DNA of 64,000 nt from Macrocystis pyrifera. Taxonomy: Eukaryota > Sar > Phaeophyceae > Laminariales > Laminariaceae. Location of the stretch: assembly GCA_031763025.1 (NCBI GenBank), contig JASSKH010000023.1:7529501-7593500 (forward strand). The letters are read 5' to 3'. Position numbers and translations under genes: made by a program. The notes under the pieces were generated by a model. That model had not been told where the DNA came from, searched no databases, and worked only from the letters and a program-made list of their open reading frames with translations. Shown piece by piece: positions 46,838-64,000 of the stretch; the stretch's first letter is position 1, and each line of letters opens with the position of its first letter.

Positions 46838-47316
46838 ATGGCAAAAAATGAGCTTTTTTCAGGTTTGGGAGGATACCGTAGGATGCCGCCGGCAAAGCTC
46901 TTGCCCCCTAGAGCATGCGTCCACCTCATTTCTTCGAGCCCGTCATCTATACTAGTTGATCTTGCCCGCCACCGCGCGGGTTGCCCGTGGGCTGAGTCTC
47001 TGTCGAGATCGAGCGTCAATCGTGTATCGTCGCACCAGCTGAAATAATACTTTTTTGGTGAACTTCGCGTTTCCATTCGCATACTATAGCAGGTTTTTTA
47101 GAGTACAACAGGAGTGGGTTACTTTTTGTGTCAGAGCAAAATTATGGACGAGTACTGCTGTACTGCAGAGTGCTGTATCCAAGCAGTATCATAACAGAAT
47201 GGCAAAAGAATGCATTGTGTCTATCAGTACATCAGTACAACAAACGTCTCGAATGGCAAAAAATGGTTTTTTTTTTCAGTTTTGGGAGGATATATACCGT
47301 TCGTTGGACGCCGCCG
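46838..47316 (+). repeat. Dispersed repeat family F, host of the LTR element insertion
   Basis: Contains 'TCGAATGGCAAAAAATG', 'TTGGGAGGATACCGTAGGA.GCCGCCGGCA', 'TCTTGCCCCCTAGAGCATGC' and 'CCACCGCGCGGGTTG'. A second, interrupted unit runs to 47316 and resumes at 60279 beyond the big retrotransposon. More copies: 60283-60690 (+), 61310-61405 (+) and 63340-64000 (-). Confidence 0.75.
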
Positions 47317-47777
47317 TGTGATGCGGAGCCCGCTCTAGGGTAGTGGTAAGGGTAGTGGCAAGGGACGCAGGTTGTTCTGGCAGCTGGAAAGCAGTGCTTC
47401 GCTTCTTCTGATTTAGATCTTATTGATGGCAAGAGCTGAGGAGGTGCTCTGGTAGAGAAGTGAGAGGTAGGGGGGCGGGACTCGACGCCCAGATATACTC
47501 GTCCCACCCCACGCCACAAACTCTCCTAAATTCCTCTTATCTGATGTACTCCAACAGAACTTTCCTAATGGCTACGATCGTTCTTCTGCTAATATAAGAA
47601 CTTCTCACTTCGTAGTCCTATCTGCATCACGGAACATTCCTAAAATAACGATACTCTCGACTAACGGAATATCCGCCGGGTTAATCCATTCTTTGGATTA
47701 TTCTCGTATTCGTGGAACTACAAAACTGCAACGTATTATCTATATCTATAGCCCATGAATACTCTACTCATATCACA
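47317..47777 (-). repeat. 3' LTR of the NADAR retrotransposon
   Basis: 461 bp, TGTGAT...ATCACA at the ends. Aligned to the 5' LTR it is nearly identical from 47379 to 47777, with only about two single-base indels in ~398 bp. It differs by ~46 extra bases (TAGTGG-like tandem words) near 47330-47375. Confidence 0.9.
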
Positions 47778-49356: not shown

Positions 49357-52300
49357 CTAACCAGGGGGGGGAGTGGAAACGGTGGGGGTTCCGCGGGACA
49401 CATCAGAGTTCCGCAGCACCCCACGTGCTAGGCTCCCATTCCCATGGCGTTGAAGACACCACGATCCGTATACGGCGTTCCGTGCTGTAGTGTAGCGGGC
49501 GGGTTGGAGGTCGATCTTGATCGGGCCGGGGTCGTCCAGGAACCGGACGATGTAGGAGCTTCCCGGTGAAGACTCCGGCGGAGTTCCCGAAGAGGCGTCA
49601 GGGGGTGAGCCGTGGGCGACCTTGCCCAGCCACCAAAGGCCGTCGTGCGCCTTGTACCATATGTGTGCTCCGGAGGGTAGGATGGTGGTGCTGAAGTTGT
49701 GGAGCCAAAGGCTGCGGGAGACCAAGGCGTAGCCTGGGGCGAGGAAGATTTGTCCTTGAGATCGGGCCAGTTCGCGGTGAGCGGCGCCGATGCGCATCTG
49801 GCGGTAGAGGCGGTTCGTCTGGCGGTGCTGGGTTGGTGATCGTGACCAGTAAAGTAGGATGTGGCGCCGGAAGTGTTGAAGGTCCAGCTCGCGTTCCCAA
49901 GAGGGGCTGAGAAGTCCAGTCCAGTGAGTCTCGTACAGAACGGCGATGACCCCGCCGCGGCCGCGTACGAGTTGATGGCCGGTGATCTGCTCGACCTCGA
50001 GGCGTTCCGGTGGAGGAGTGACGTCGTCGACGGTGACGTGGTAAGGGGGGGACTTGGCGGCAGAAGCTGTGAGCACGTATGTAGTAAGGTCCGCGGGCAG
50101 ATGCTTGGGGATGTCGCTGGTGTCGTCGGGGTTCCGGCAAGGTTTGCATCGTTGGACGGAGACGCGTGGCTTGGAGTCCCGTCCCGGAAGGTCCGATGGA
50201 AGGTCGAGGAAAAGTAGCTTGTCGTGAAGGGGGCGATTGTCGGGGGTGTTTGAGGCGGGCGTCGGCCCTACGGCAAGGACCTTGAAGGGGCCATTCCAGT
50301 TGAGGGAAAGCTTCGCCTTGAGGACGGTTGCGTCGGTGCCCTTTTTGACGCCTTGGCGGATGGTTGAGGCGGAATTGTAGACCCAAACCCAGCCGCCTAC
50401 GGTGAAGGGGGGGGATGCTAGGAGGGCGGCCATGATGGGCGCATTGCGGCGCTGAAGACGCGAGACGGTGAGTCGGTGTAGTTCGCGGACGAGGGAATAG
50501 GCGCGTCGTTGTCGGTCGGTGGCGAGGTTGATGTAAACCAGGTGATCGCGGTCCAGGCTTTGGTGACCGCCGATATTGTCGGGTTCGAAGACCGAGAGCG
50601 GGAGGCGAGGAAGGCGGCCCATGTGGATTTCGTTAGGTGCAAGCCCTGTGGCAGCGTTCACGGAATTGTTGTAGGCCGACGACACGTGTGGGAGCAGCAC
50701 GTCCCAGTCGGTCTGCTGTTCGTTGCCAACCATAGAGAGCATTTGGGCCAGTACGTGGTTGACGCGCTCGACGCCGCCGTTGGTGCAGGGGTGGTAGGAG
50801 CTGGTGTTGACCTTGTGGATGCCGAGGCGTTCGTAGACGATGTTCGCAAGCTTGGAGGTGAAGTGTAGTCCGTTGTCGGAGAGAAGTGTAACCGGGCACC
50901 CCCAGAGAGGGATGTACTCGTTCAGGAAGATGTCGGCAGTGCCGGCGGCCGTGAACTGCGCCGCTGAAACGGCATACATATCGGCGCGGCGGCTGAAGCG
51001 GTCTGTGAAGAGGAGGATGTGGACGTTCCCGCGCGGCGTGAGCGGCAGGGGCCCAAAGTAGTCGACGCTGACGGTGATGCCAGGCCCGTTGGGCAAAGGA
51101 AGAGAAAGGATGGGCCAACGAATGGTGTGCCGGGAGGTCTTCCGCGCCTGGCATTGAAGGCAACGGCGGATCCACCAGCGGACGGAAGCGTTCATGCCAA
51201 TCCACCAAAAGAAACGTGCCAACATGCGGACCGTTCGGGTGACTCCCAGGTGTAGAGAGGTGGTGGCGTGGCATGTGTTCAGCACCCAAGGGCGCATTAA
51301 CATTGGCACGTAGACGCGTGGGGTAGAGGGGGCGGGTGGTGGTAGGCTGTTCCCGGATGAGGTTGTGGGTGGTCGTTGGACCAGGAGGGCGGTTTCGTCG
51401 TCGGTACGGTGTAGCTTGCTTTTGGAGGCAAGAGTGAGGACGTCCGAAAGTTGTGGGCGCCGGGCCGGGGGGATGAAGTCCAGGAGGTCGTGCGGCGTGG
51501 GGCTGGGGGAGTCCAACGACAGGAAGCGGATGGTGGCGCAGCACAGGGGCTCCGCGCGTTGTTCTCGCGCCCAGTCTTTGTAGGTGTAGTGCTCGACGCA
51601 GGCGAGGAGGTAGGGGTCATCATCGGGTTCGACGACGGGCTCCGGAAGGGGCACTGACGGTGGTGTTTGTGCCGGCGGCGAGGGCGTTGTTAAAGGGGTC
51701 GGTCTTTGCGTGGTGGGCGCCGATGGCTTGGGTGGCGGTCGGCGTCCAAACCGGTAGTCGGCTGTGGGCCGAGGGGTTCCCGCGGCAGCGGCGACGCGAT
51801 GGCGGGTCCGAGAAGATATCAGACCTGAAAGGGCTGGTGTCGTGGCGCCAATGGTGGGCGGCGGAGAGACGACGGACGGCATGGAAGCCGAGCCTGGAGG
51901 AGCTCCGGTGTTCACGGCGGCATTCTCGGTGCCGGCAAGCTGTCCGGTGGTGGAGTCGCTGGTCGCAATAGGCCCGATGAAGGTGTGGGTTGCGGGGGAA
52001 AGGGTGGGGTGCTCCATACGTGGTCCGAGTAGGCGAAAGTCGCGGAAGTCGTCGTCGGTGAAGGGGAGCGGCTGGACGGTTGGGATGGGTCCGGAAGGGG
52101 GGGACACGAGCCCACCCAAGCCGATACCCGGGGTGGAAGGGTCGTTCGGCGCGAAGCCGCAGGGGCGGATGAGGTAGATGCCGACGGTGTCGGGGCCAGT
52201 GCGGCGGTTGCGTCCGGTGCGGTCGGCGTCGGTGGCTGGTTGGGGAAGCCGGGAGAGGAAGTCGGCGTTGTCGTTGGCCGTGCCCGTCCGGTACTCCAGC

Positions 52301-52452
52301 GTGTAGGTGTACGCTGAAAGGAGCTCGAGCCGTTGGGCTGTCCGGGGGTACGGTGATCTTGAACGGCATGAGCGAGCACGAGCCGAAGTCAGTCTTGGTG
52401 GTGGAGAAGACGTCCTGGAATCGCAGAGGACGTCTCCCAGGTTGTTGATCAC
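49357..52452 (-). CDS. pol C-terminal part: RNase H tail, integrase, chromodomain, Tudor-like module
   Basis: 1031 uninterrupted codons on the minus strand from 52452; the first ~40 are out of frame with the ancestral RT. Residues ~42-71 are the RNase H end ('YTLEYRTGTANDNADFLSRLP'). The integrase zinc-binding site is H395/H401/C431/C434. The catalytic triad is D464, D526 and E562, with exactly 35 residues between the last two. A GPF module (~682-730) is followed by a chromodomain (~817-870, ending 'WERELDLQHFRRHILLYW'), which places it with chromoviruses. A further module at ~925-988 ('GAHIWYKAHDGLWWLGKV ... YIVRFLDDPGPI') looks Tudor/SH3-like. Integrase inserts the element's cDNA in the nucleus; the chromodomain steers it to histone marks. 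Confidence 0.93.
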   Translation of the reverse strand: MINNLGDVLCDSRTSSPPPRLTSARARSCRSRSPYPRTAQRLELLSAYTYTLEYRTGTANDNADFLSRLPQPATDADRTGRNRRTGPDTVGIYLIRPCGFAPNDPSTPGIGLGGLVSPPSGPIPTVQPLPFTDDDFRDFRLLGPRMEHPTLSPATHTFIGPIATSDSTTGQLAGTENAAVNTGAPPGSASMPSVVSPPPTIGATTPALSGLISSRTRHRVAAAAGTPRPTADYRFGRRPPPKPSAPTTQRPTPLTTPSPPAQTPPSVPLPEPVVEPDDDPYLLACVEHYTYKDWAREQRAEPLCCATIRFLSLDSPSPTPHDLLDFIPPARRPQLSDVLTLASKSKLHRTDDETALLVQRPPTTSSGNSLPPPAPSTPRVYVPMLMRPWVLNTCHATTSLHLGVTRTVRMLARFFWWIGMNASVRWWIRRCLQCQARKTSRHTIRWPILSLPLPNGPGITVSVDYFGPLPLTPRGNVHILLFTDRFSRRADMYAVSAAQFTAAGTADIFLNEYIPLWGCPVTLLSDNGLHFTSKLANIVYERLGIHKVNTSSYHPCTNGGVERVNHVLAQMLSMVGNEQQTDWDVLLPHVSSAYNNSVNAATGLAPNEIHMGRLPRLPLSVFEPDNIGGHQSLDRDHLVYINLATDRQRRAYSLVRELHRLTVSRLQRRNAPIMAALLASPPFTVGGWVWVYNSASTIRQGVKKGTDATVLKAKLSLNWNGPFKVLAVGPTPASNTPDNRPLHDKLLFLDLPSDLPGRDSKPRVSVQRCKPCRNPDDTSDIPKHLPADLTTYVLTASAAKSPPYHVTVDDVTPPPERLEVEQITGHQLVRGRGGVIAVLYETHWTGLLSPSWERELDLQHFRRHILLYWSRSPTQHRQTNRLYRQMRIGAAHRELARSQGQIFLAPGYALVSRSLWLHNFSTTILPSGAHIWYKAHDGLWWLGKVAHGSPPDASSGTPPESSPGSSYIVRFLDDPGPIKIDLQPARYTTARNAVYGSWCLQRHGNGSLARGVLRNSDVSRGTPTVSTPPPG

Positions 52453-52465: not shown

Positions 52466-53850
52466 CTAGAACCGTGCAGGTCGAAGTTGACGTCGCGTAG
52501 GTGTAACGGCAGACGTTCCCAGAGGTCGAGGAAGCTTTCCCGTTGGTCGAAGTTGAGGTGTGCAAGACGTTGTGGGCACGGGGCTTTTGGTGCGGTAGGA
52601 GAGTCGTCTGTCGATGGGCTCTGGTCGGCCACGGGGATGTTGTCGTGGAGGGCATGTAAATCCGGAATCGGAGGGGGATGGGGAGGGGCCAAGGAAGGGT
52701 GTCCAAGGGTGGAAAGTGGTGCCTGTACCAGTGGGGAGCAGGAGGTTCCGAGGAGGTCGCCCGGCTCGAGATCGGTAGATCCAGATAGTGGGACCGTTAG
52801 GTATTCGTCGGAGACGAAAATGGCCGGGTCGGACAGGGGGTTCTCGCGGGGGAGCATGTTCACCATGTAGTTCCCGGTAAATGCTGGAGCGCCTGACTGA
52901 CGCGCCAGGTTGACCTTGACGAGCTTGGGGGTGGAGGAAAGCGAAATAGCTTTGTTGCCGGCGAATCGGAGGGGGTAGACGTCGTCAGTGGAACGATCGT
53001 TGGAAATGAATGCAGAGGCTCCGTTGGGGTCATGGTGGTTCAAGGAGAGCTCACCGCGGGTTCGCCGGGTAGGTTGGTGGGGGGGGGTGGGCTGTTGCTG
53101 GAGCGTGGTATACGAGCGTTGCTCGAAGCGCATCCAGCTGTCTCGTCCCAGAAGGATGGGGTGCTGCATGGTTCCTGCAGGAACTACGCAGGCCCATACT
53201 GCCAGGGCAGCAGTGGGGGACTGGAGGCGCATAAACTGGATGCTTAAGCGGATGGAGACGGAGGTGGAGAGGGGGGCTGAAGTGCCGAAACCTCCCCATG
53301 AACGGGGGGAACTGTGCCGTTCGCACGCATCGGTGGCTGCCTGGGAAGCCTTCAGTTGTTCCACCGCGGTTGCGGTGATAAATGACTGGGGCGAGCCGGT
53401 ATCGAGCAGTGCCACGAGTTCGCGGCGCGTAGTGGCGGTGGGGCCGCTGTGCACGAGTACTTCGTCGTGAACGACGCGTCGTCGACGGTAATGATGCCGC
53501 TTGTAAGGCATGGTCCGTGTTCCGGTATCGGCGGGCGGCGGGTAGGGAGGTGGCTGTGAGTTGCGGTGTTGATGGTGGACACTTGGGCAAAGTGGCTGCT
53601 GGGGTAGGCGTCGGGGGTGGACGGCGGTAGGAGTGGCCCAAGTGGAGAGGTAGGCGGTTGCCATGGAGGGGTCGGGCTTGTTTCGTGGATGCCGTCGGCT
53701 GTGGGGGAGACCCGGGTGGAGTCGGTGGGGGTGGGTGTTGGCTCCGGGTCGTGAAGATGGGGAGGAAATGGAGGCTGGGTGGAGCAATTGTCGCCGAGGC
53801 TTTCTCGAACGTCCATCAGTATCCTGCCCAGCAAATTCCGACCACGCCAA
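52462..53850 (-). CDS. Retropepsin-like aspartic protease region of pol
   Basis: 462 codons on the minus strand. The catalytic motif 'LVALLDTGSPQSFI' has its Asp at about 53403 (residue 150 of the open frame), followed ~75 residues later by 'ILLGRDSW', the usual second landmark. A linker with 'LVKVNLARQSGAPAF' and 'DEYLTVPLSGS' leads toward RT. The frame differs from the upstream NADAR frame and overlaps it, so expression needs a ribosomal frameshift, as is common between gag and pol. It matures the polyprotein. The stop TGA overlaps the ATG of the RT remnant. Confidence 0.88.
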   Translation of the reverse strand: MAWSEFAGQDTDGRSRKPRRQLLHPASISSPSSRPGANTHPHRLHPGLPHSRRHPRNKPDPSMATAYLSTWATPTAVHPRRLPQQPLCPSVHHQHRNSQPPPYPPPADTGTRTMPYKRHHYRRRRVVHDEVLVHSGPTATTRRELVALLDTGSPQSFITATAVEQLKASQAATDACERHSSPRSWGGFGTSAPLSTSVSIRLSIQFMRLQSPTAALAVWACVVPAGTMQHPILLGRDSWMRFEQRSYTTLQQQPTPPHQPTRRTRGELSLNHHDPNGASAFISNDRSTDDVYPLRFAGNKAISLSSTPKLVKVNLARQSGAPAFTGNYMVNMLPRENPLSDPAIFVSDEYLTVPLSGSTDLEPGDLLGTSCSPLVQAPLSTLGHPSLAPPHPPPIPDLHALHDNIPVADQSPSTDDSPTAPKAPCPQRLAHLNFDQRESFLDLWERLPLHLRDVNFDLHGSR

Positions 53851-54536
53851 CGCGTCGGGTCACAGGCGTCCGGATGGTCGGCCTTGAAGCCTATGCCCCA
53901 GATGAGGTCGTGTGGGCTGGCCTCGGCGATGTGCTTGTCGCCGGTTGCCATTAGCTCCTCCCGTAGCTCCGGGTGTTGGCGGAACTTGGAGAAGTTAATG
54001 TAGAGGACGATGGTGTAGCGGTGTCGCTCCCAGACCATTTCGTCGAAGTCGGAAACGGTTCGCCCAAGTGCTTTTTGGCGGGCCGGGTCGCGGGTCGCTT
54101 TGATGCGGCGCTCAGTTGTGATGTTCCCGAAGAGCGCGGCCTTCTGCGCCATCATCGTCTGCTCAGCGCAGTTGTATGTGACGCCATCGTGTTCGATGTC
54201 GCACAGGTACCACTGCGAAAAGACCGAAGAGGAGTCCCAGAAGAAGTGGAAAGATGAGGCGGCCTCTGCGGTGACGTGTGCAGATGATGGCGTCTTTTGT
54301 GTTGGGGGTGGGGGGCGACGATAATCTTTCCTATCGCCGCCTGGCGTCGACGGAGGTAGAGTCAGCAACGATCGAGCGGTGCTGGCCGGAACCCTCGTGT
54401 TCGCGGGGGAATTGCTCGGCAAAGCCGAGGTACCGGGGCGGTCCTCGCCGGGGCTTATAAGCCGGGCGGGACGACCCTCAAGCGCCCTATCGTCCAACTT
54501 TTGGAGAACAGGGGCATACTCGCTAGGGGATGCCAC
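53352..54536 (-). CDS. NADAR (YbiA/DUF1768) domain protein carried by the retrotransposon
   Basis: 394 intact codons on the minus strand. After a Pro-rich leader, residues ~95-247 (54254-53796) are a full NADAR domain: 'FFWDSSSVFSQW', 'HDGVTYNCAEQTMMAQKA' (with the conserved Glu), 'KALGR.VSDFDEMVWE', 'KFRQHPELREELMATGD', 'ASPHDLIWGIGF' and 'WRGRNLLGRILMDVRESL'. NADAR enzymes cleave N-glycosidic bonds: YbiA acts on riboflavin intermediates, and others remove ADP-ribose from guanine in DNA. The tail overlaps the protease frame. Position between gag and protease, the same strand and location inside the LTRs make it a cargo gene of the element. I infer, but cannot show, a role in shielding element DNA or RNA from ADP-ribosylation, or in NAD metabolism. 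Confidence 0.93.
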   Translation of the reverse strand: MASPSEYAPVLQKLDDRALEGRPARLISPGEDRPGTSALPSNSPANTRVPASTARSLLTLPPSTPGGDRKDYRRPPPPTQKTPSSAHVTAEAASSFHFFWDSSSVFSQWYLCDIEHDGVTYNCAEQTMMAQKAALFGNITTERRIKATRDPARQKALGRTVSDFDEMVWERHRYTIVLYINFSKFRQHPELREELMATGDKHIAEASPHDLIWGIGFKADHPDACDPTRWRGRNLLGRILMDVRESLGDNCSTQPPFPPHLHDPEPTPTPTDSTRVSPTADGIHETSPTPPWQPPTSPLGPLLPPSTPDAYPSSHFAQVSTINTATHSHLPTRRPPIPEHGPCLTSGIITVDDASFTTKYSCTAAPPPLRAANSWHCSIPARPSHLSPQPRWNN

Positions 54537-55013: not shown

Positions 55014-56821
55014 TCAGTGCTTGAACAAGTGGCTGTGAAATGGGCTGGGGTAGGGGGGGGGCATTGGAGGGCAGGGGTCGGGGAGGCGTGATGCACGTGA
55101 TTTACTCGTGCGTCCTGGGAGCCTCGGGTGCTCGCAGTAGATGCTGTTGGTGGAGATGCGGCAGTTGCTCCACCATCGGCTTGTCGGTTGGTGCGGAAGG
55201 TTCCCGGCTGCCGTTGGTTCGGGTGGGTACCCGAGTTGGTGCTGCCCATCCGCATGTTCGCGGGGGCGGCAGGTGCGGAAGTATTGGTCACAGGGGTATG
55301 TCAACGCGGAAGACGAGGGGGCAGGCTCGATGCGTTGTTGTTGGAACTGTTGCCCTGGCGACTGTCGGTTGCCGTTGTCGTATGACCGGCCGTTGTTGTG
55401 GCGCCAGTTGTCGGAGCGCCCGTTGTTGCCGCGGTAGTTGCGGGAGTGGTTCTGGTTGGAGCGGTTGCTGTTGTAGTTTCCGCTGCGGTTGTTGTTGTTG
55501 TTGCCTCGACGGTTGTTGTTGTCGTAGCGGTTGGAGTTTCGCTCCAGGTTGTGCTCGTAGTGTCCACGGCGATATAAGAGCATCCTCTGCTGCCATTGGC
55601 GCTAGGCGTGTCCAACTACCGGGCTGAGGATGCCGAACGTGTTGCGAAGCGCAGGGGGCAGGTCTTCATACTATGTCCGTGCCATTGCAGTTGGGGCAGT
55701 GGTCACCGTGAGCTCGTAGGGCTTGGGCGTGGGACACCACGACGTTCCGCCTCCGTCGTGGGCTCCGTGTTGGCTCTCGTCATCAGGCTGCGCGCTCGTG
55801 AGGAGCGGGGCGCTGTCGTCGTAGGGGGCGGCGCTGTCGAGGTGGGAAGGGGCGGTGTCGCCGGCGATGGCATGTCCGTCGTGGGGCGGGTGGTTGAGGG
55901 TGTCGGGGGAGCGGGTCGAGACGGTTGGGTTCCACACGTAGCCGCGGCCGGCGTTCGAGTGAAAATACCGTGGCTCGAGTAAACGGGTATGGGCGGCCCC
56001 GATGAACTCGGAAGAAACACCCTCGGTGGCGGCGCGGGCCAGAACGAAAGTGATCGACGGGTTACAGTCGGGTGTGAAGAGCTGCCATACACGGTGTACC
56101 TCTAGCGAGACATCCGAGACCGTCGCGTCGCGTGTACTCTGCATCCAGCGGAGCTTAGCGTCGAGGAAGACCCAGTCATTGGGCTCAAAGCCGAACGTCT
56201 GCGGGTGCCGGTGCCCAGTGGGTATGGGGGCTGGCAAGGGTTGGGCCGGTAGTGGTGCCTGGGACATTGTGGTCCCAGTTTGGTTTTTGGGAGGCTGGGA
56301 GGTGGTGGTCCTAGACATCGCGGCGGACGTATAGGGTGCCCATGGTGAGGAGCGAACGGCTGCGATTGGGCCGTGGTGGCCGCGGTCGCAGCTGTAGTCC
56401 CATAGGTGGAGTCGAAAGGGTTCGAGTAAGGGGTGGGGGACGGCGGTAACACGAGTAGGAGGTCAGCGCCCTCTTTCGCGAGAAGGAGGAGCTGCTCGTG
56501 GTGGGCTTTGAGGGCCGCACGGCGCTCACGGAGGGCCGTGGGATCGCCTTGGTAACGCCCCGGATTGAGAGCCAGGGTGGAGGTTTCCTGTGCAGAGACC
56601 TCCGGGTTGATGGTAGGCCCGGCACTGGTCGTGCCTGCTCCCATTGGAGAAGATCCCGGTGTGGTGGGGTGTAGCGTGAAGTCGCTCAGAATGGTTTCGA
56701 AGCCAGGGGTGTCGTCGTCGGTAGCGCGAAAGGCCCTTGCGGCATACCTCGCCTCGCGGGGGTTGGTGGCGTCGGGGGAGTGGGCGCCGGGAATGTTGGT
56801 GGAGGAAGCTTTCTCGGCCAT
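55014..56821 (-). pseudogene. gag-like region of the NADAR retrotransposon, spread over several frames
   Basis: From ATG 56821 the minus strand reads a Gag-like protein (frame to 56102). The sense then moves to the frame of 56318-55671, with 'FGFEPNDWVFLDAKLRWMQ' and 'PDCNPSITFVLARAATEG'. A CCHC zinc knuckle is visible near 55695-55655: CPNCNG in one frame, then GHSMKTC in another, a one-base break inside the knuckle. Then comes an Asn/Arg-rich low-complexity segment (about 55560-55330). At least two frame breaks separate these parts, so this copy should not make full Gag, unless some shifts are programmed or sequence errors. Confidence 0.75.
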
Positions 56822-59863: not shown

Positions 59864-60278
59864 TGTGATGCTCTGACGGCAGCTGGAAAAGCAGTGCTTC
59901 GCTTCTTCTGATTTAGATCTTATTGATGGCAAGAGCTGAGGAGGTGCTCTGGTAGAGAAGTGAGAGGTAGGGGGGCGGGACTCGACGCCCAGATATACTC
60001 GTCCCACCCCACGCCACAAACTCTCCTAAATTCCTCTTATCTGATGTACTCCAACAGAACTTTCCTAATGGCTACCGATCGTTCTTCTGCTAATATAAGA
60101 ACTTCTCACTTCGTAGTCCTATCTGCATCACGGAACATTCCTAAAATAACGATACTCTCGACTAACGGAATATCCGCCGGGTTAATCCATTCTTTGGATT
60201 ATTCTCGTATTCGTGGAACTACAAAACTGCAACGTATTATCTATATCTATAGCCCATGAATACTCTACTCATATCACA
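59864..60278 (-). repeat. 5' LTR of the NADAR retrotransposon
   Basis: 415 bp with the same TGTGAT...ATCACA ends as the 3' LTR. It lacks a ~46-bp tandem-word segment present in the other LTR. The coding strand contains TATATTAG-like and AATAAGAT-like words that could serve as promoter and poly-A signals. Confidence 0.88.
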
Positions 60279-61408
60279 GCCGGCAAGCTCTTGCCCCCTA
60301 GAGCATGCATCCACCTCATTTCTTCGAGCCCGTCATCTATACTAGTCGATCTTGCCCGCCACCGCGCGGGTTGTCCGTGGGCTGAGTCTCTGTCGAGATC
60401 GAGCGTCTATCGTGTATCGTGGCACGAGCTGGAATAATACTTTTTGGTGTACTTCGCGTTTCCATTCGCATACTATAGGAGGTATTTACAGCACAACAAC
60501 AGGAGTGGGTTACTTTTTGTACCAGAGCAAAATTATCGACGAGTACTACTGTGTCTCGAATGGCAAAAAAAATGCATACTATCGCAAGTCTTTACAGCAG
60601 CGAAAGGCAAAAAATGAGCTTTCTTCAGGTTTGGGGAGATACCGTAGGACGCCGCCGGCAGCAGTGGATTACTTTCTACTTTTCGCCTGCATTTGTTTGC
60701 GATCGTCATCGTATGTTTCCGTACTCGCATATAATACAATGAATAACCCGCCAGTTTAAAGCAGCGCACAGCGCTCATCCATCGTATACGAGAGATTGGT
60801 ACAGCATACCACGTGCGTACTTGCAAATTATTGCACATCGACACCCATCTGATCGTTTTCCGAGAAGATCTATATTTAGAAATTGATAAAGCACATGCCG
60901 AAGAGACATCATTTTTGGATAATAAGTGTACCGACGAAAACACCCTATTCAATTTTCGTTCTGCGCTAAAAATACTCTAGAAGAGTACTATTGAAAAATT
61001 GCATACTACTACTAAAAAAATGCACACGAACTATCGTCGGTCTTTTACAACAACAGCAGTAGTTAGTTGATTACTTTCTACTTTTCGCCTTTATTTGTAT
61101 TTTGCGATCCTCGTCGTATGTATGTTTCGGTACTCGCAAAAAGAATGACCCAAGATTGAATACTATCGTAGGTATTTTTCAACAGCACAGAGCAGCTAGT
61201 TGACTACTTTCTACTTTTCGCCTATATTTGTATTTTGCGATCCTCTCGTCCTATGTTTCGGTACTCGCAAAAATAATAGCCCGGCAGTTGAAAAGACGTC
61301 AATCTGTCGAATGTGTAACAAAATATGTTTTTTTTTCAGGTTTGGGAGGATTCTGTAGGACGCCGGCGGCAAGCTCTTGCCCCCCATAGCATGCATCCAC
61401 CTCAGTTT

Positions 61409-61685
61409 GTTAAGATCAAGGGTTGCGGGACACTTTGTATCCTTGGACAGGTCTGCCTTTTAAGTCGGTAAACATTGTACTCACATGTGTTGTTTGCTTA
61501 GCTACAGAACAAGAGCAGTTTTATTCCTTTCGTGCACGCGGAGACTGAGACCAAGCTCGTGCTCTTCTGGAAAACCCCCTGGTTTTCCATCTAAGATACG
61601 CCTTCCAAGTACTACAAATACGTTCCCAGTGACTGAACCCAGGTAGTTACCGGGCTTTCAATCTCATACAAGACAATATCTTAAC
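61409..61685 (-). repeat. 3' LTR of an internally deleted LTR retrotransposon
   Basis: 277 bp; on the minus strand TGTTAAGATATTGTC ... GATCTTAACA, a 9-bp terminal inverted repeat. A purine-rich CAGAGTGGGCTAG on the minus strand directly precedes it (polypurine tract). Same family as the solo LTR at 9202-9490. Confidence 0.8.
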
Positions 61686-62164
61686 ACTAGCCCACTCTGA
61701 TGAGCCGTATATGCAGGATTATGGGAAATTCGTGGAAACCCCGATTCCACGAACTAGAACATGAGTCGAAGATGCGGTTCCTCAAAACCCACTCCCACAC
61801 CTCTGAACGGCGAGGCAACGAAGCCGGCAAAGTACGTAAAAAAAAACAAAGGGAAGACCTAGCCTTAAGGGGCAGGAAGAAAATCGTCGATGAAAGCCAT
61901 CGCCATGCCGCCCGCACGGGGGGGGCGAGGAAGATGCACGGAAAAGCGAAAAGTGCGTACGGGAACGAAAAGAAAAATAACACGGAAGACGACAAGAACC
62001 ACCTAAACCCAGTCCACCACTCTGAAAGCGCGTCCCAACACCGAGCGGGGGGGGAAGGCAGGACAGAATACGCAAAAACACATCCCCAACCCAGTCCAAA
62101 AAAAAAAAAAAAAAAAAGAAAACACGCCAGAAACATATCGGGCAGACAAGACAATATCTTAACA
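61409..62164 (-). mobile_element. Internally deleted LTR retrotransposon with 4-bp duplication
   Basis: The outer ends are TGTTAAGAT and ATCTTAACA, and the flanks carry AGTT (61405-61408, 62165-62168). The empty site is visible in the other arm of the palindrome (63325-63340, CCTCAGTTCTCATTTCG on the complement). The 5' LTR is reduced to its first ~19 bases, followed by an internal remnant with a G/A-rich frame and the intact 3' LTR. An 18-bp tandem repeat follows the right end. Confidence 0.75.
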
Positions 62165-62184
62165 AGTTCTCATATCTTAACAAG

Positions 62185-63330
62185 TTCTCATTTCGCCAAC
62201 AACTATTTCGCGGTACAGAGATCTCTAAGATCTTGTCAATCTGTCGTTTACTTTTTGTGATAAACAACCGACATGTTTTGCTTTGGCCAAGAGAGCGTCG
62301 TCAGCTTTCTGAATGATTGTTGGAGATCTCTCCCCGTTCATGTTTCGTTTTTCATTGGCCAACAGTCTTGTATTTAGCCCTGCAGCCCCAATTACATCCC
62401 AATGATATCGATCCCATTACTGTGGTACTGGTGCGGGTGCTCGTTCCGTCTTCGTGTGCTGCTGCTGGATATATGTCCCCCCGCCGAGTACTATAATAAG
62501 TGGTACCGATACTCAACAAGTAGACGCTCTGCCTGAGCCAGACACAGCACTCTGGGGTTCCGTCTGTGCTGGTCCCGACTGGTCTCTGCCGTCACTCTCA
62601 ACAACTCCACCTGCGACTTCACAAAAAAAGAGACAAGCAAACTGAGAACAACGCTCGAATGCATTTTATCGAGGGCAATAACAATATAGTATCAGTGCGC
62701 AGAATGATTATTTAAAATTGTCCTGTTGACCCGGGCAGCATCCAGGGGAGCCGCTTGCCTATATCTTTGACAAGGAATTACATTTAGAATACGCACGTTC
62801 GGTTGATCACAATACTTGTAAAATTAAAATTCAGTAAAAATGGAATATAGGCGAGACGTATTAATTACGCAGCTTACAAAGTTGAGTATCAACTATTTAA
62901 TCAGTCGAACTCACAGCTGAGAGTGACGGGAGAGGCCTGTCGGGACCAGCACAGACGGAACTTCAGAGTGCTGTGTTTGGCCCAGGCAGAGCGTCTACTT
63001 GTTGACTATCGGTACCACTTGTTATAGTACTCGGCGGGGACACATATCCAGCAGCAGCACACGAAGACGGAACGAGCACCCGCACCAGTACCACAGCAAT
63101 GGGATCGATATCATTGAGGTGTAATTGCGGTTGCAGGGCTAACTACAAGACCGTTGACCAATGAAAAACGAAACATGAACGGGGAGAGATCTCCAACAAT
63201 CATTCAGAAAGCTGACGACGCTCTCTTGGCCAAAGCAAAACATGTCGGTTGTTTATTACAACAAGTAAACGACAGATTGAATAGAGATCTCTGTACCGTG
63301 GAATGGTTGTTGGCGAAATGAGAACTGAGG
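62185..63330. repeat. Large inverted repeat (~400-bp arms)
   Basis: Left arm 62185-62610 and right arm 62928-63330 are inverted copies with small indels, sharing 'TTTCGCCAACAAC', 'AACCGACATGTTTTGCTTTGG', 'GGAGATCTCTCCCCGTTCATG' and 'CGTCTTCGTGTGCTGCTGCTGG'. The arms extend outward into inverted family F sequence (61310-61405 against 63338-63420). The spacer contains the family D copy at 62719-62924. Confidence 0.8.
62719..62924 (+). repeat. Family D repeat copy at the centre of the palindrome
   Basis: TGTCCTGTTGACCCGGGCAGC ... CAGTCGAACTCACAGCTGA, the same orientation as 1566-1790. Confidence 0.8.
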
Positions 63331-64000
63331 TGGATGCATGGTCTAGTGGGCAAGAGCTTGCCGCCGGCGTCCTACAGTATCCTCCCAAACCCGAAAAAAG
63401 TCAATTTTTTGTTGTGTGTTGTTATACATTCGACAGATTGACGTAGTTTCAACTGCCGGGTTATTATTTTTGCGAGTACCGAAACTTACGATGATGATCG
63501 CAAAATACAAAAGTAGAAAGTAATCAACTAACTGCTGTTGTAACCCACTCCTGTTGTTGTACTGTAGAAGACCTGCGACAGTACGCGAATGGACGCAAAG
63601 TACACCGAAAAAAAAATATTATGCCAGCTCGTGCGACCATACACGATAGACGCTCGATCTCGACAGAGACTCAGCCAACGGACAACCCGCGCGGTGGCGG
63701 GCAAGATCAACTAGTATAGATGACGGGCTCGAAGAAATGAGGTAGATGCATGCTCTAGGGGGCAAGAGCTTGCCGGCGGCGTCCTGCGGTATCCTCCCAA
63801 AACTGAAAAAAGTCCATTTTTTGCCATTCGAGACGTTTGTTGTACTGATAGACAAAATGCATTTTTTTTGCCATTCGAGACGGATACAGCACTCTGCACT
63901 ACACAGCAGCAGTTCGTACTCGTCGATAATTTTGTTGTGGCACAAAAAGTAACCCACTCCTGTTGTTGTACTGTAGAAGACCTGCTACAGTACGCGAATG

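Follow-up and report, generated by a model that had tools for sequence, protein, structure and literature searches.

The window analysed here, a stretch of 64,000 nucleotides of Macrocystis pyrifera DNA, contains an LTR retrotransposon whose Pol region begins with a complete NADAR domain of the YbiA type, and the same arrangement is repeated in many copies across the genome. As a tentative reading, given slightly less than even confidence, this domain was taken up by a Ty3/gypsy lineage of brown algae and removes guanine-linked ADP-ribose, or a related NAD-derived adduct or metabolite, for the benefit of the element.

NADAR domain and structure of the window element

The following features of the element were assigned, all on the minus strand and listed here from the 5' LTR onwards:

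59878..60278, minus strand: 5' LTR, 401 nt, aligned with 47379-47777
56105..56821, minus strand: gag-region open reading frame, first part, assigned by position; a 94-residue piece matches at 96-100% in 7 of 10 long family-A copies
55671..56318, minus strand: gag-region open reading frame, second part in another frame, assigned by position; a 160-residue piece matches at 91-99% in 7 of 10 long family-A copies
53352..54536, minus strand: NADAR-bearing open frame of 394 codons, NADAR plus linker, the last 35 codons out of the protease frame
53796..54245, minus strand: NADAR domain (PF08719), YbiA type by the glutamate equivalent to E125; from Pfam, TIGR02464 and active-site alignment
53089..53460, minus strand: aspartic protease domain (LLDTGSPQSF), directly downstream of NADAR and here in another frame
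52249..52368, minus strand: end of RNase H, a remnant after deletion of the reverse transcriptase (RT) and most of RNase H; the junction is found in seven other copies too
49855..51612, minus strand: integrase region (Integrase_H2C2, E 9e-16; rve, E 7e-6, under its cut-off)
49843..49998, minus strand: weak chromodomain-like stretch after the integrase (PF00385, E 0.04, 14.3 bits, cut-off 25.1)
47379..47777, minus strand: 3' LTR, 399 nt, aligned with 59878-60278

The intact 394-codon frame with a NADAR domain, as originally predicted for positions 53352-54536 of the minus strand, is present. The Pfam search for NADAR (DUF1768) aligned residues 98-247 with positions 1-162/163 of PF08719 (E 5.1e-49, 167 bits against a cut-off of 35.1), so that membership of the NADAR superfamily is confirmed for the whole domain. 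The frame is also matched by TIGR02464 (riboflavin intermediates N-glycosidase, E 1.2e-43), while the domain alone retrieved the structures PDB 8bau (E 1e-18) and 2b3w (YbiA, E 2e-7).

The end of the frame is out of step with the protease in this copy. Residues 360-394 lie in a frame that differs from that of the protease following at this place in relatives such as P0001, and the distance between NADAR and protease is 336 nt in the window against 337 nt in 21 of 28 measurable copies of family A, to which the window element belongs. It was because of this broken frame that the NADAR region looked like a separate gene of 394 codons, of which the last 35 are an out-of-frame end.

The two LTRs differ by two single-base indels and by no substitution. 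Such near identity points to a probably recent insertion. Visual inspection of the flanks revealed no target-site duplication at the element ends. The position of the frame inside the LTRs, the gene order and the common strand were found as predicted for a gene between gag and protease; the label gag itself is given by position and by similarity to sister copies, since the Pfam scan of five gag-region frames gave no match at E 0.1. For the second gag-region frame, the 160-residue piece reached 68-86% in L017 and L020, and in L028 it falls outside the stretch covered. The protease carries LLDTGSPQSF, which we take to be the protease signature, and matches Pfam Asp_protease_2 weakly (E 0.035, under cut-off).

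The order protease, RT, RNase H, integrase typical of Ty3/gypsy elements is present in sister copies (for example L015, L020 and L021) and not in the window copy, which has no RT; in L020, Pfam RVT_1 and RNase H were found. The designation as chromovirus-type is doubtful, given the weak match to PF00385 and the description of the chromodomain-bearing Gypsy lineages of Ectocarpus as unrelated to chromoviruses (PMC12477816).

Copies in the genome, gene order and reading frame

The M. pyrifera assembly (537,376,219 bases, 223 contigs) was searched for further copies, and at least 150 NADAR loci exceed the PF08719 cut-off (150 scored of 1264 candidates, all 150 passing). Twenty plus-strand loci, chosen by NADAR score and not at random, were taken as 9-kb stretches. 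In all 20, NADAR is followed by the protease on the same strand. They fall into two families of ten copies each, family A with 95-98% and family B with 47-51% identity to the window NADAR, the two families being about 50% identical to each other in this domain; within the families, each sampled NADAR is 91-100% identical to one member of its own family. The predicted multiplicity of copies with a constant NADAR-protease order is thereby borne out, and a private insertion of a host gene in the window copy is excluded by these many copies of the same order.

The reading frame was scored in 65 loci (the 20 stretches, 44 further loci and the window; 29 of family A and 36 of family B, four overlapping loci omitted). 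As the 64 loci other than the window were picked by NADAR score, intact domains are over-represented among them. NADAR is free of stops in 56 of the 65. NADAR and protease share one frame in 42 loci and do not in 14, including the window, while nine could not be judged. With 42 of 56 judgeable loci in one frame, NADAR is to be regarded as the N-terminal domain of Pol, and not as the free-standing cargo gene that was first proposed.

Independently of NADAR, the window protease was used as query, and 150 of 1465 candidate loci were scored. Pairing was defined as a NADAR upstream, on the same strand and within 1.2 kb, from a list of the best 150 of 1115 candidates obtained with the NADAR of P0002. 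At least 101 of the 150 protease loci have such a NADAR, 60 of the 101 at exactly 337 nt. By protease identity, pairing was found in 84 of 112 loci at 95% or more, in 17 of 30 at 79-94% and in none of the eight at 67-68%. The remaining 49 of 150, including all eight at 67-68%, have no NADAR among the NADAR loci listed, and some of them may be NADAR-less or broken copies. Copies lacking NADAR, named beforehand as evidence against the proposal, may thus exist among these 49.

Active site and subfamily

For the NADAR protein of the oomycete Phytophthora nicotianae, 13 residues near the ligand have been named, including E43, K50 and E125 (PMC11543638). PDB 8bau was taken to be this protein because its residues match the numbering in that paper; all 13 letters agree once the paper and chain numbering are shifted by two relative to each other. 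Eleven of the 13 residues are identical in the window NADAR, and the other two are conservative replacements (Y84 to F, D86 to E). The window frame has E125, K132 and E205 in the places of E43, K50 and E125, respectively. At the E125 position, glutamate is described as marking the YbiA subfamily, aspartate the DarT-linked BC4488 subfamily and histidine the phage type (PMC11543638, PMC11125620); by its E205, the window NADAR is thus assigned from its sequence to the YbiA subfamily.

The equivalents of E43, K50 and E125 are kept in 29/29, 29/29 and 29/29 family-A copies and in 35/36, 35/36 and 36/36 family-B copies of M. pyrifera. Among 136 database proteins collected by NADAR similarity, they are kept in 80/85, 111/117 and 125/134 of those without a gap at the column. 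This retention bears on a structural or binding role within the Pol polyprotein (spacing, RNA binding or protease activation), where catalysis would be unimportant. Such a role would agree with the nearly fixed distance to the protease (337 nt in 60 of 101 pairs listed), but the three residues are kept in nearly all copies and in most database proteins although about half of the domain differs between families, and we consider a purely structural role improbable.

Selection on the domain

Pairwise NG86 ratios within families were 0.51 (A, 29 rows) and 0.48 (B, 36 rows) for NADAR, and 0.82 (A, 27 rows) and 0.47 (B, 25 rows) for the protease. Variants that occur in at least two copies were assumed to have mostly arisen in replicating lineages. 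The pN/pS set omits L036, which is identical to another copy. For shared NADAR variants, pN/pS was 0.26 in family A (9 nonsynonymous, 10 synonymous) and 0.35 in family B (19 and 16), compared with 0.62 and 0.58, respectively, for variants of single copies. Pooled shared NADAR variants lie below the neutral expectation (binomial p 3e-5; 0.004 on the assumption that synonymous changes make up 30% of neutral ones). The contrast between shared and single-copy variants is marginal (Fisher p 0.055), and single-copy variants look near neutral once mutation bias is allowed for.

Shared protease variants gave a pN/pS of 1.06 in family A (15 nonsynonymous to 5 synonymous), showing no constraint, and 0.32 in family B. 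The family-A value is at odds with simple purifying selection on Pol and may be an effect of small numbers. Since sampling started from the highest NADAR scores, intact domains are favoured and the NADAR pN/pS is biased downwards. Taken together, the evidence from these variants for purifying selection on NADAR is moderate. The hint of selection read from the window copy is thus upheld as far as the depletion of amino-acid changes among shared variants goes, and is weakened by the marginal contrast and by a sample selected on NADAR itself.

These data also bear on whether the domain is a passenger, captured once and of little function, which appears intact because the copies are young and were chosen by NADAR score. 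The nearly identical LTRs of the window element, the 91-100% identity of sampled NADARs to one family member and the near neutrality of single-copy variants would all fit, but the depletion among shared variants speaks against it, as do the active site kept in families A, B and C, whose domains are about half different, and the presence of the same domain in the published Ectocarpus lineage (PMC12477816). A passenger is accordingly given a very low probability.

A multiplied derivative without reverse transcriptase

The window copy lacks RT and most of RNase H. Eleven long family-A copies could be compared, namely ten of the 20 nine-kb stretches and the window. The identical deletion junction was found in eight of them (window, L017, L018, L022, L023, L024, L026 and L027), while RT is present in the other three, L020, L021 and L028, in the last partially. 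A junction common to eight copies indicates that the product of a single deletion has been multiplied. The derivative retains its NADAR, protease and integrase matches; RT is presumably supplied by other copies.

Relatives and origin

A search with residues 195-590 of P0009, itself a distant relative, returned 312 proteins. The NADAR Pfam domain is present in every one of the 120 listed, accompanied by a reverse transcriptase in seven. In P0086 and P0104, RVT_1, RNase H and the later part of the NADAR domain stand in one frame. Of the 136 database proteins examined, all 123 with both domains have NADAR before the protease, 95-112 residues apart.

The nearest prokaryotic NADARs share 49-56% identity with those of the elements (top rows). 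This sharing of about half of the residues is the one observation in favour of bacterial contamination or an artefact of assembly or annotation. Such an origin is refuted by the spread of at least 150 matches over many contigs, several of them as large as chromosomes, by the adjoining protease, with RT and integrase in most copies read, and by independent database entries whose NADAR and RT share a reading frame; its probability is practically nil.

A NADAR tree was built from the element NADARs and the best 80 of 591 prokaryotic NADARs (112 rows). The element NADARs form two groups, A with P0007-like sequences (94/86) and B with C, and in the free tree Myxococcota NADARs (Nannocystis, Polyangia) stand beside B and C (97/90). 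For the AU test, 94 rows were kept; the 18 rows dropped were 11 Streptomyces sequences and seven mostly long-branched ones, including the decayed element row P0008 and the unplaced proteins P0012 and P0014. This test did not reject a single clade of the 28 element rows (p 0.305). In trees of 25 rows, NADAR and protease agree in the family groups and in an unrooted split that separates A plus P0007 from B plus C. Families A, B and C differ in about half of their NADAR residues and keep the active site.

The simplest reading of these trees would be one acquisition, followed by co-inheritance with the protease. Two acquisitions, one for A and one for B and C, are possible, as the Myxococcota sequences group with B and C in the free tree. 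A bacterial donor is plausible. The NADAR domain of the Ectocarpus Gypsy lineage is likewise reported to have almost only bacterial matches (PMC12477816).

Possible function

ADP-ribosyl hydrolysis is probably the function of the element NADAR, and reversal of RNA or cDNA ADP-ribosylation, as proposed originally, would fit an active site conserved in this way. Hydrolysis of guanine-linked ADP-ribose is favoured because a YbiA-type oomycete enzyme carries it out on DNA (PMC11543638), because the active site is conserved, and because fusion to Pol would put NADAR together with the template. Under this preferred reading, a Ty3/gypsy lineage of brown algae would have acquired a YbiA-type NADAR between gag and protease, perhaps once and perhaps from a bacterium, and retained it at the N-terminus of Pol. 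The domain would most likely be made with Pol and may be freed by the element protease. As an N-glycosidase it could then take ADP-ribose off guanine in element RNA or cDNA, or act on a related NAD-derived adduct or metabolite, and reverse transcription would be shielded from host or stress-induced ADP-ribosylation. In this reading, release, packaging, substrate, donor and selective benefit are inferred.

The main rival explanation is the clearance of metabolites or signals, in which NADAR would hydrolyse soluble NAD- or riboflavin-derived molecules, the role assumed for YbiA and many phage NADARs, and would not act on the nucleic acid of the element. The TIGR02464 match and the retained YbiA-type glutamate are in line with it, and phage NADARs have been proposed to act on soluble ADP-ribose derivatives (PMC9503650). 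Phages frequently encode comparable proteins (716 of 50,697 records, all below 60% identity); a scan of viral contigs with the NADAR domain gave no relative. We regard clearance as possible and somewhat unlikely, as the fusion to Pol would put the enzyme into the particle beside nucleic acid and guanine-linked ADP-ribose is hydrolysed by the oomycete YbiA-type protein (PMC11543638).

A search of the M. pyrifera genome for DarT gave no candidates, with a control positive in 1 of 14 genomes, so that no known guanine ADP-ribosyltransferase is shown in this genome. It seems doubtful that brown algae ADP-ribosylate guanine of retrotransposon RNA or cDNA as a form of restriction, which would be new to eukaryotes, with the bacterial-type de-ADP-ribosylase in Pol of this Gypsy lineage acting as a counter-defence.

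What NADAR proteins do physiologically in the different eukaryotes is described as unclear (PMC11125620). An active site kept across families that are about half different in the domain suggests that its chemistry helps an RNA-to-DNA replicator, and the element NADAR points to possible nucleic-acid ADP-ribosylation in brown algae. An exception among the unclear eukaryotic roles is reportedly an essential trans-splicing protein of nematodes. The question of the substrate can be approached with one purified NADAR domain.

Comparison with known systems

Whether this lineage had been described before was left open in the original prediction, and as a kind it had. In Ectocarpus, one Gypsy lineage, for example Gypsy-12_Ec32, is reported to carry a YbiA-family NADAR at the Pol N-terminus (Dinatale et al. 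2025, Genome Biology, PMC12477816). The first surprise, a NADAR in a Gypsy Pol, is therefore already in print, and by this published description the Macrocystis element is a kelp member of the same kind. Compared by description, the likeness lies in the position of NADAR at the Pol N-terminus and in the bacterial affinity of the domain; the differences are the other genus, at least two families within one genome and the lack of RT in the window copy. In the literature searched, mostly outside subscription journals, nothing was found on kelp copies, on selection on the NADAR domain or on RT-less NADAR elements.

The YbiA-family NADAR of P. nicotianae (PDB 8bau) shares the domain and the active site, with 11 of 13 named residues identical. 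It is described as a stand-alone protein (PMC11125620), whereas the kelp NADAR is part of the Pol of an LTR retrotransposon. The DarT1-NADAR toxin-antitoxin system (BC4488 family) belongs to the same superfamily, and its known chemistry is the hydrolysis of guanine-linked ADP-ribose (PMC11543638); in contrast, the element has the YbiA-type glutamate equivalent to E125, and the M. pyrifera genome has no DarT match.

NADAR domains inside the proteins of RNA-based replicators have also been described in the polyproteins of some RNA viruses (PMC9503650) and in ORF1 of oyster Tx1 LINEs (PMC12477816), both of them, by description, other replicators than the kelp element. Over the published Gypsy lineage, the present analysis adds the evidence on selection and the multiplied RT-less derivative.

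A non-autonomous derivative of the element

Among the 11 long copies of family A (95-98% identical to the window in NADAR), 8 lack RT and have one deletion junction in common. The copies sharing it are the following, the L handles denoting other copies of the element in the same genome:
window, 52249-52368
L017, L018, L022, L023, L024, L026 and L027

NADAR, protease and integrase are retained in this RT-less derivative, which is a non-autonomous subfamily that has multiplied. The database protein P0005 joins the opening part of NADAR directly to the integrase ORF's C-terminal tail and looks like a further and larger deletion derivative.

The gag regions of L017 (150-583) and L020 (343-778) showed just 68-86% identity to that of the window, against 95-99% for their NADAR, protease and integrase; these two family-A copies are perhaps mosaic elements.

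Surroundings of the element in the window

A repeat of about 160 nt (94-96% identity) flanks the element on both sides and occurs in one further, inverted copy:
46895-47055, flanking copy
60285-60445, flanking copy
63611-63777, inverted copy

Because of this arrangement, the element seems to sit within older repeats. Beside the element, a long imperfect palindrome at 61246-63494 consists of nested inverted repeats, with arms of 76 to 250 nt and 88-95% complementarity; it could be a DNA transposon whose terminal inverted repeats are long.

Related loci and proteins

Protease loci with 67-68% identity to the window protease in the same genome, e.g. C189:5505897 and C205:1104588, represent a further family. 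Their open frames are long, the longest reaching 1573 residues. Among the NADAR loci listed, 150 scored of 1115 candidates, none was found for them.

With the database protein P0009 as query, 312 proteins were retrieved, and NADAR was present in all 120 listed. Many of the proteins concerned (P0009, P0010, P0015 and P0019-P0136) are encoded on contigs between 0.1 and 4 Mb long. The window ORF is 38-39% alike to P0009 and P0010.
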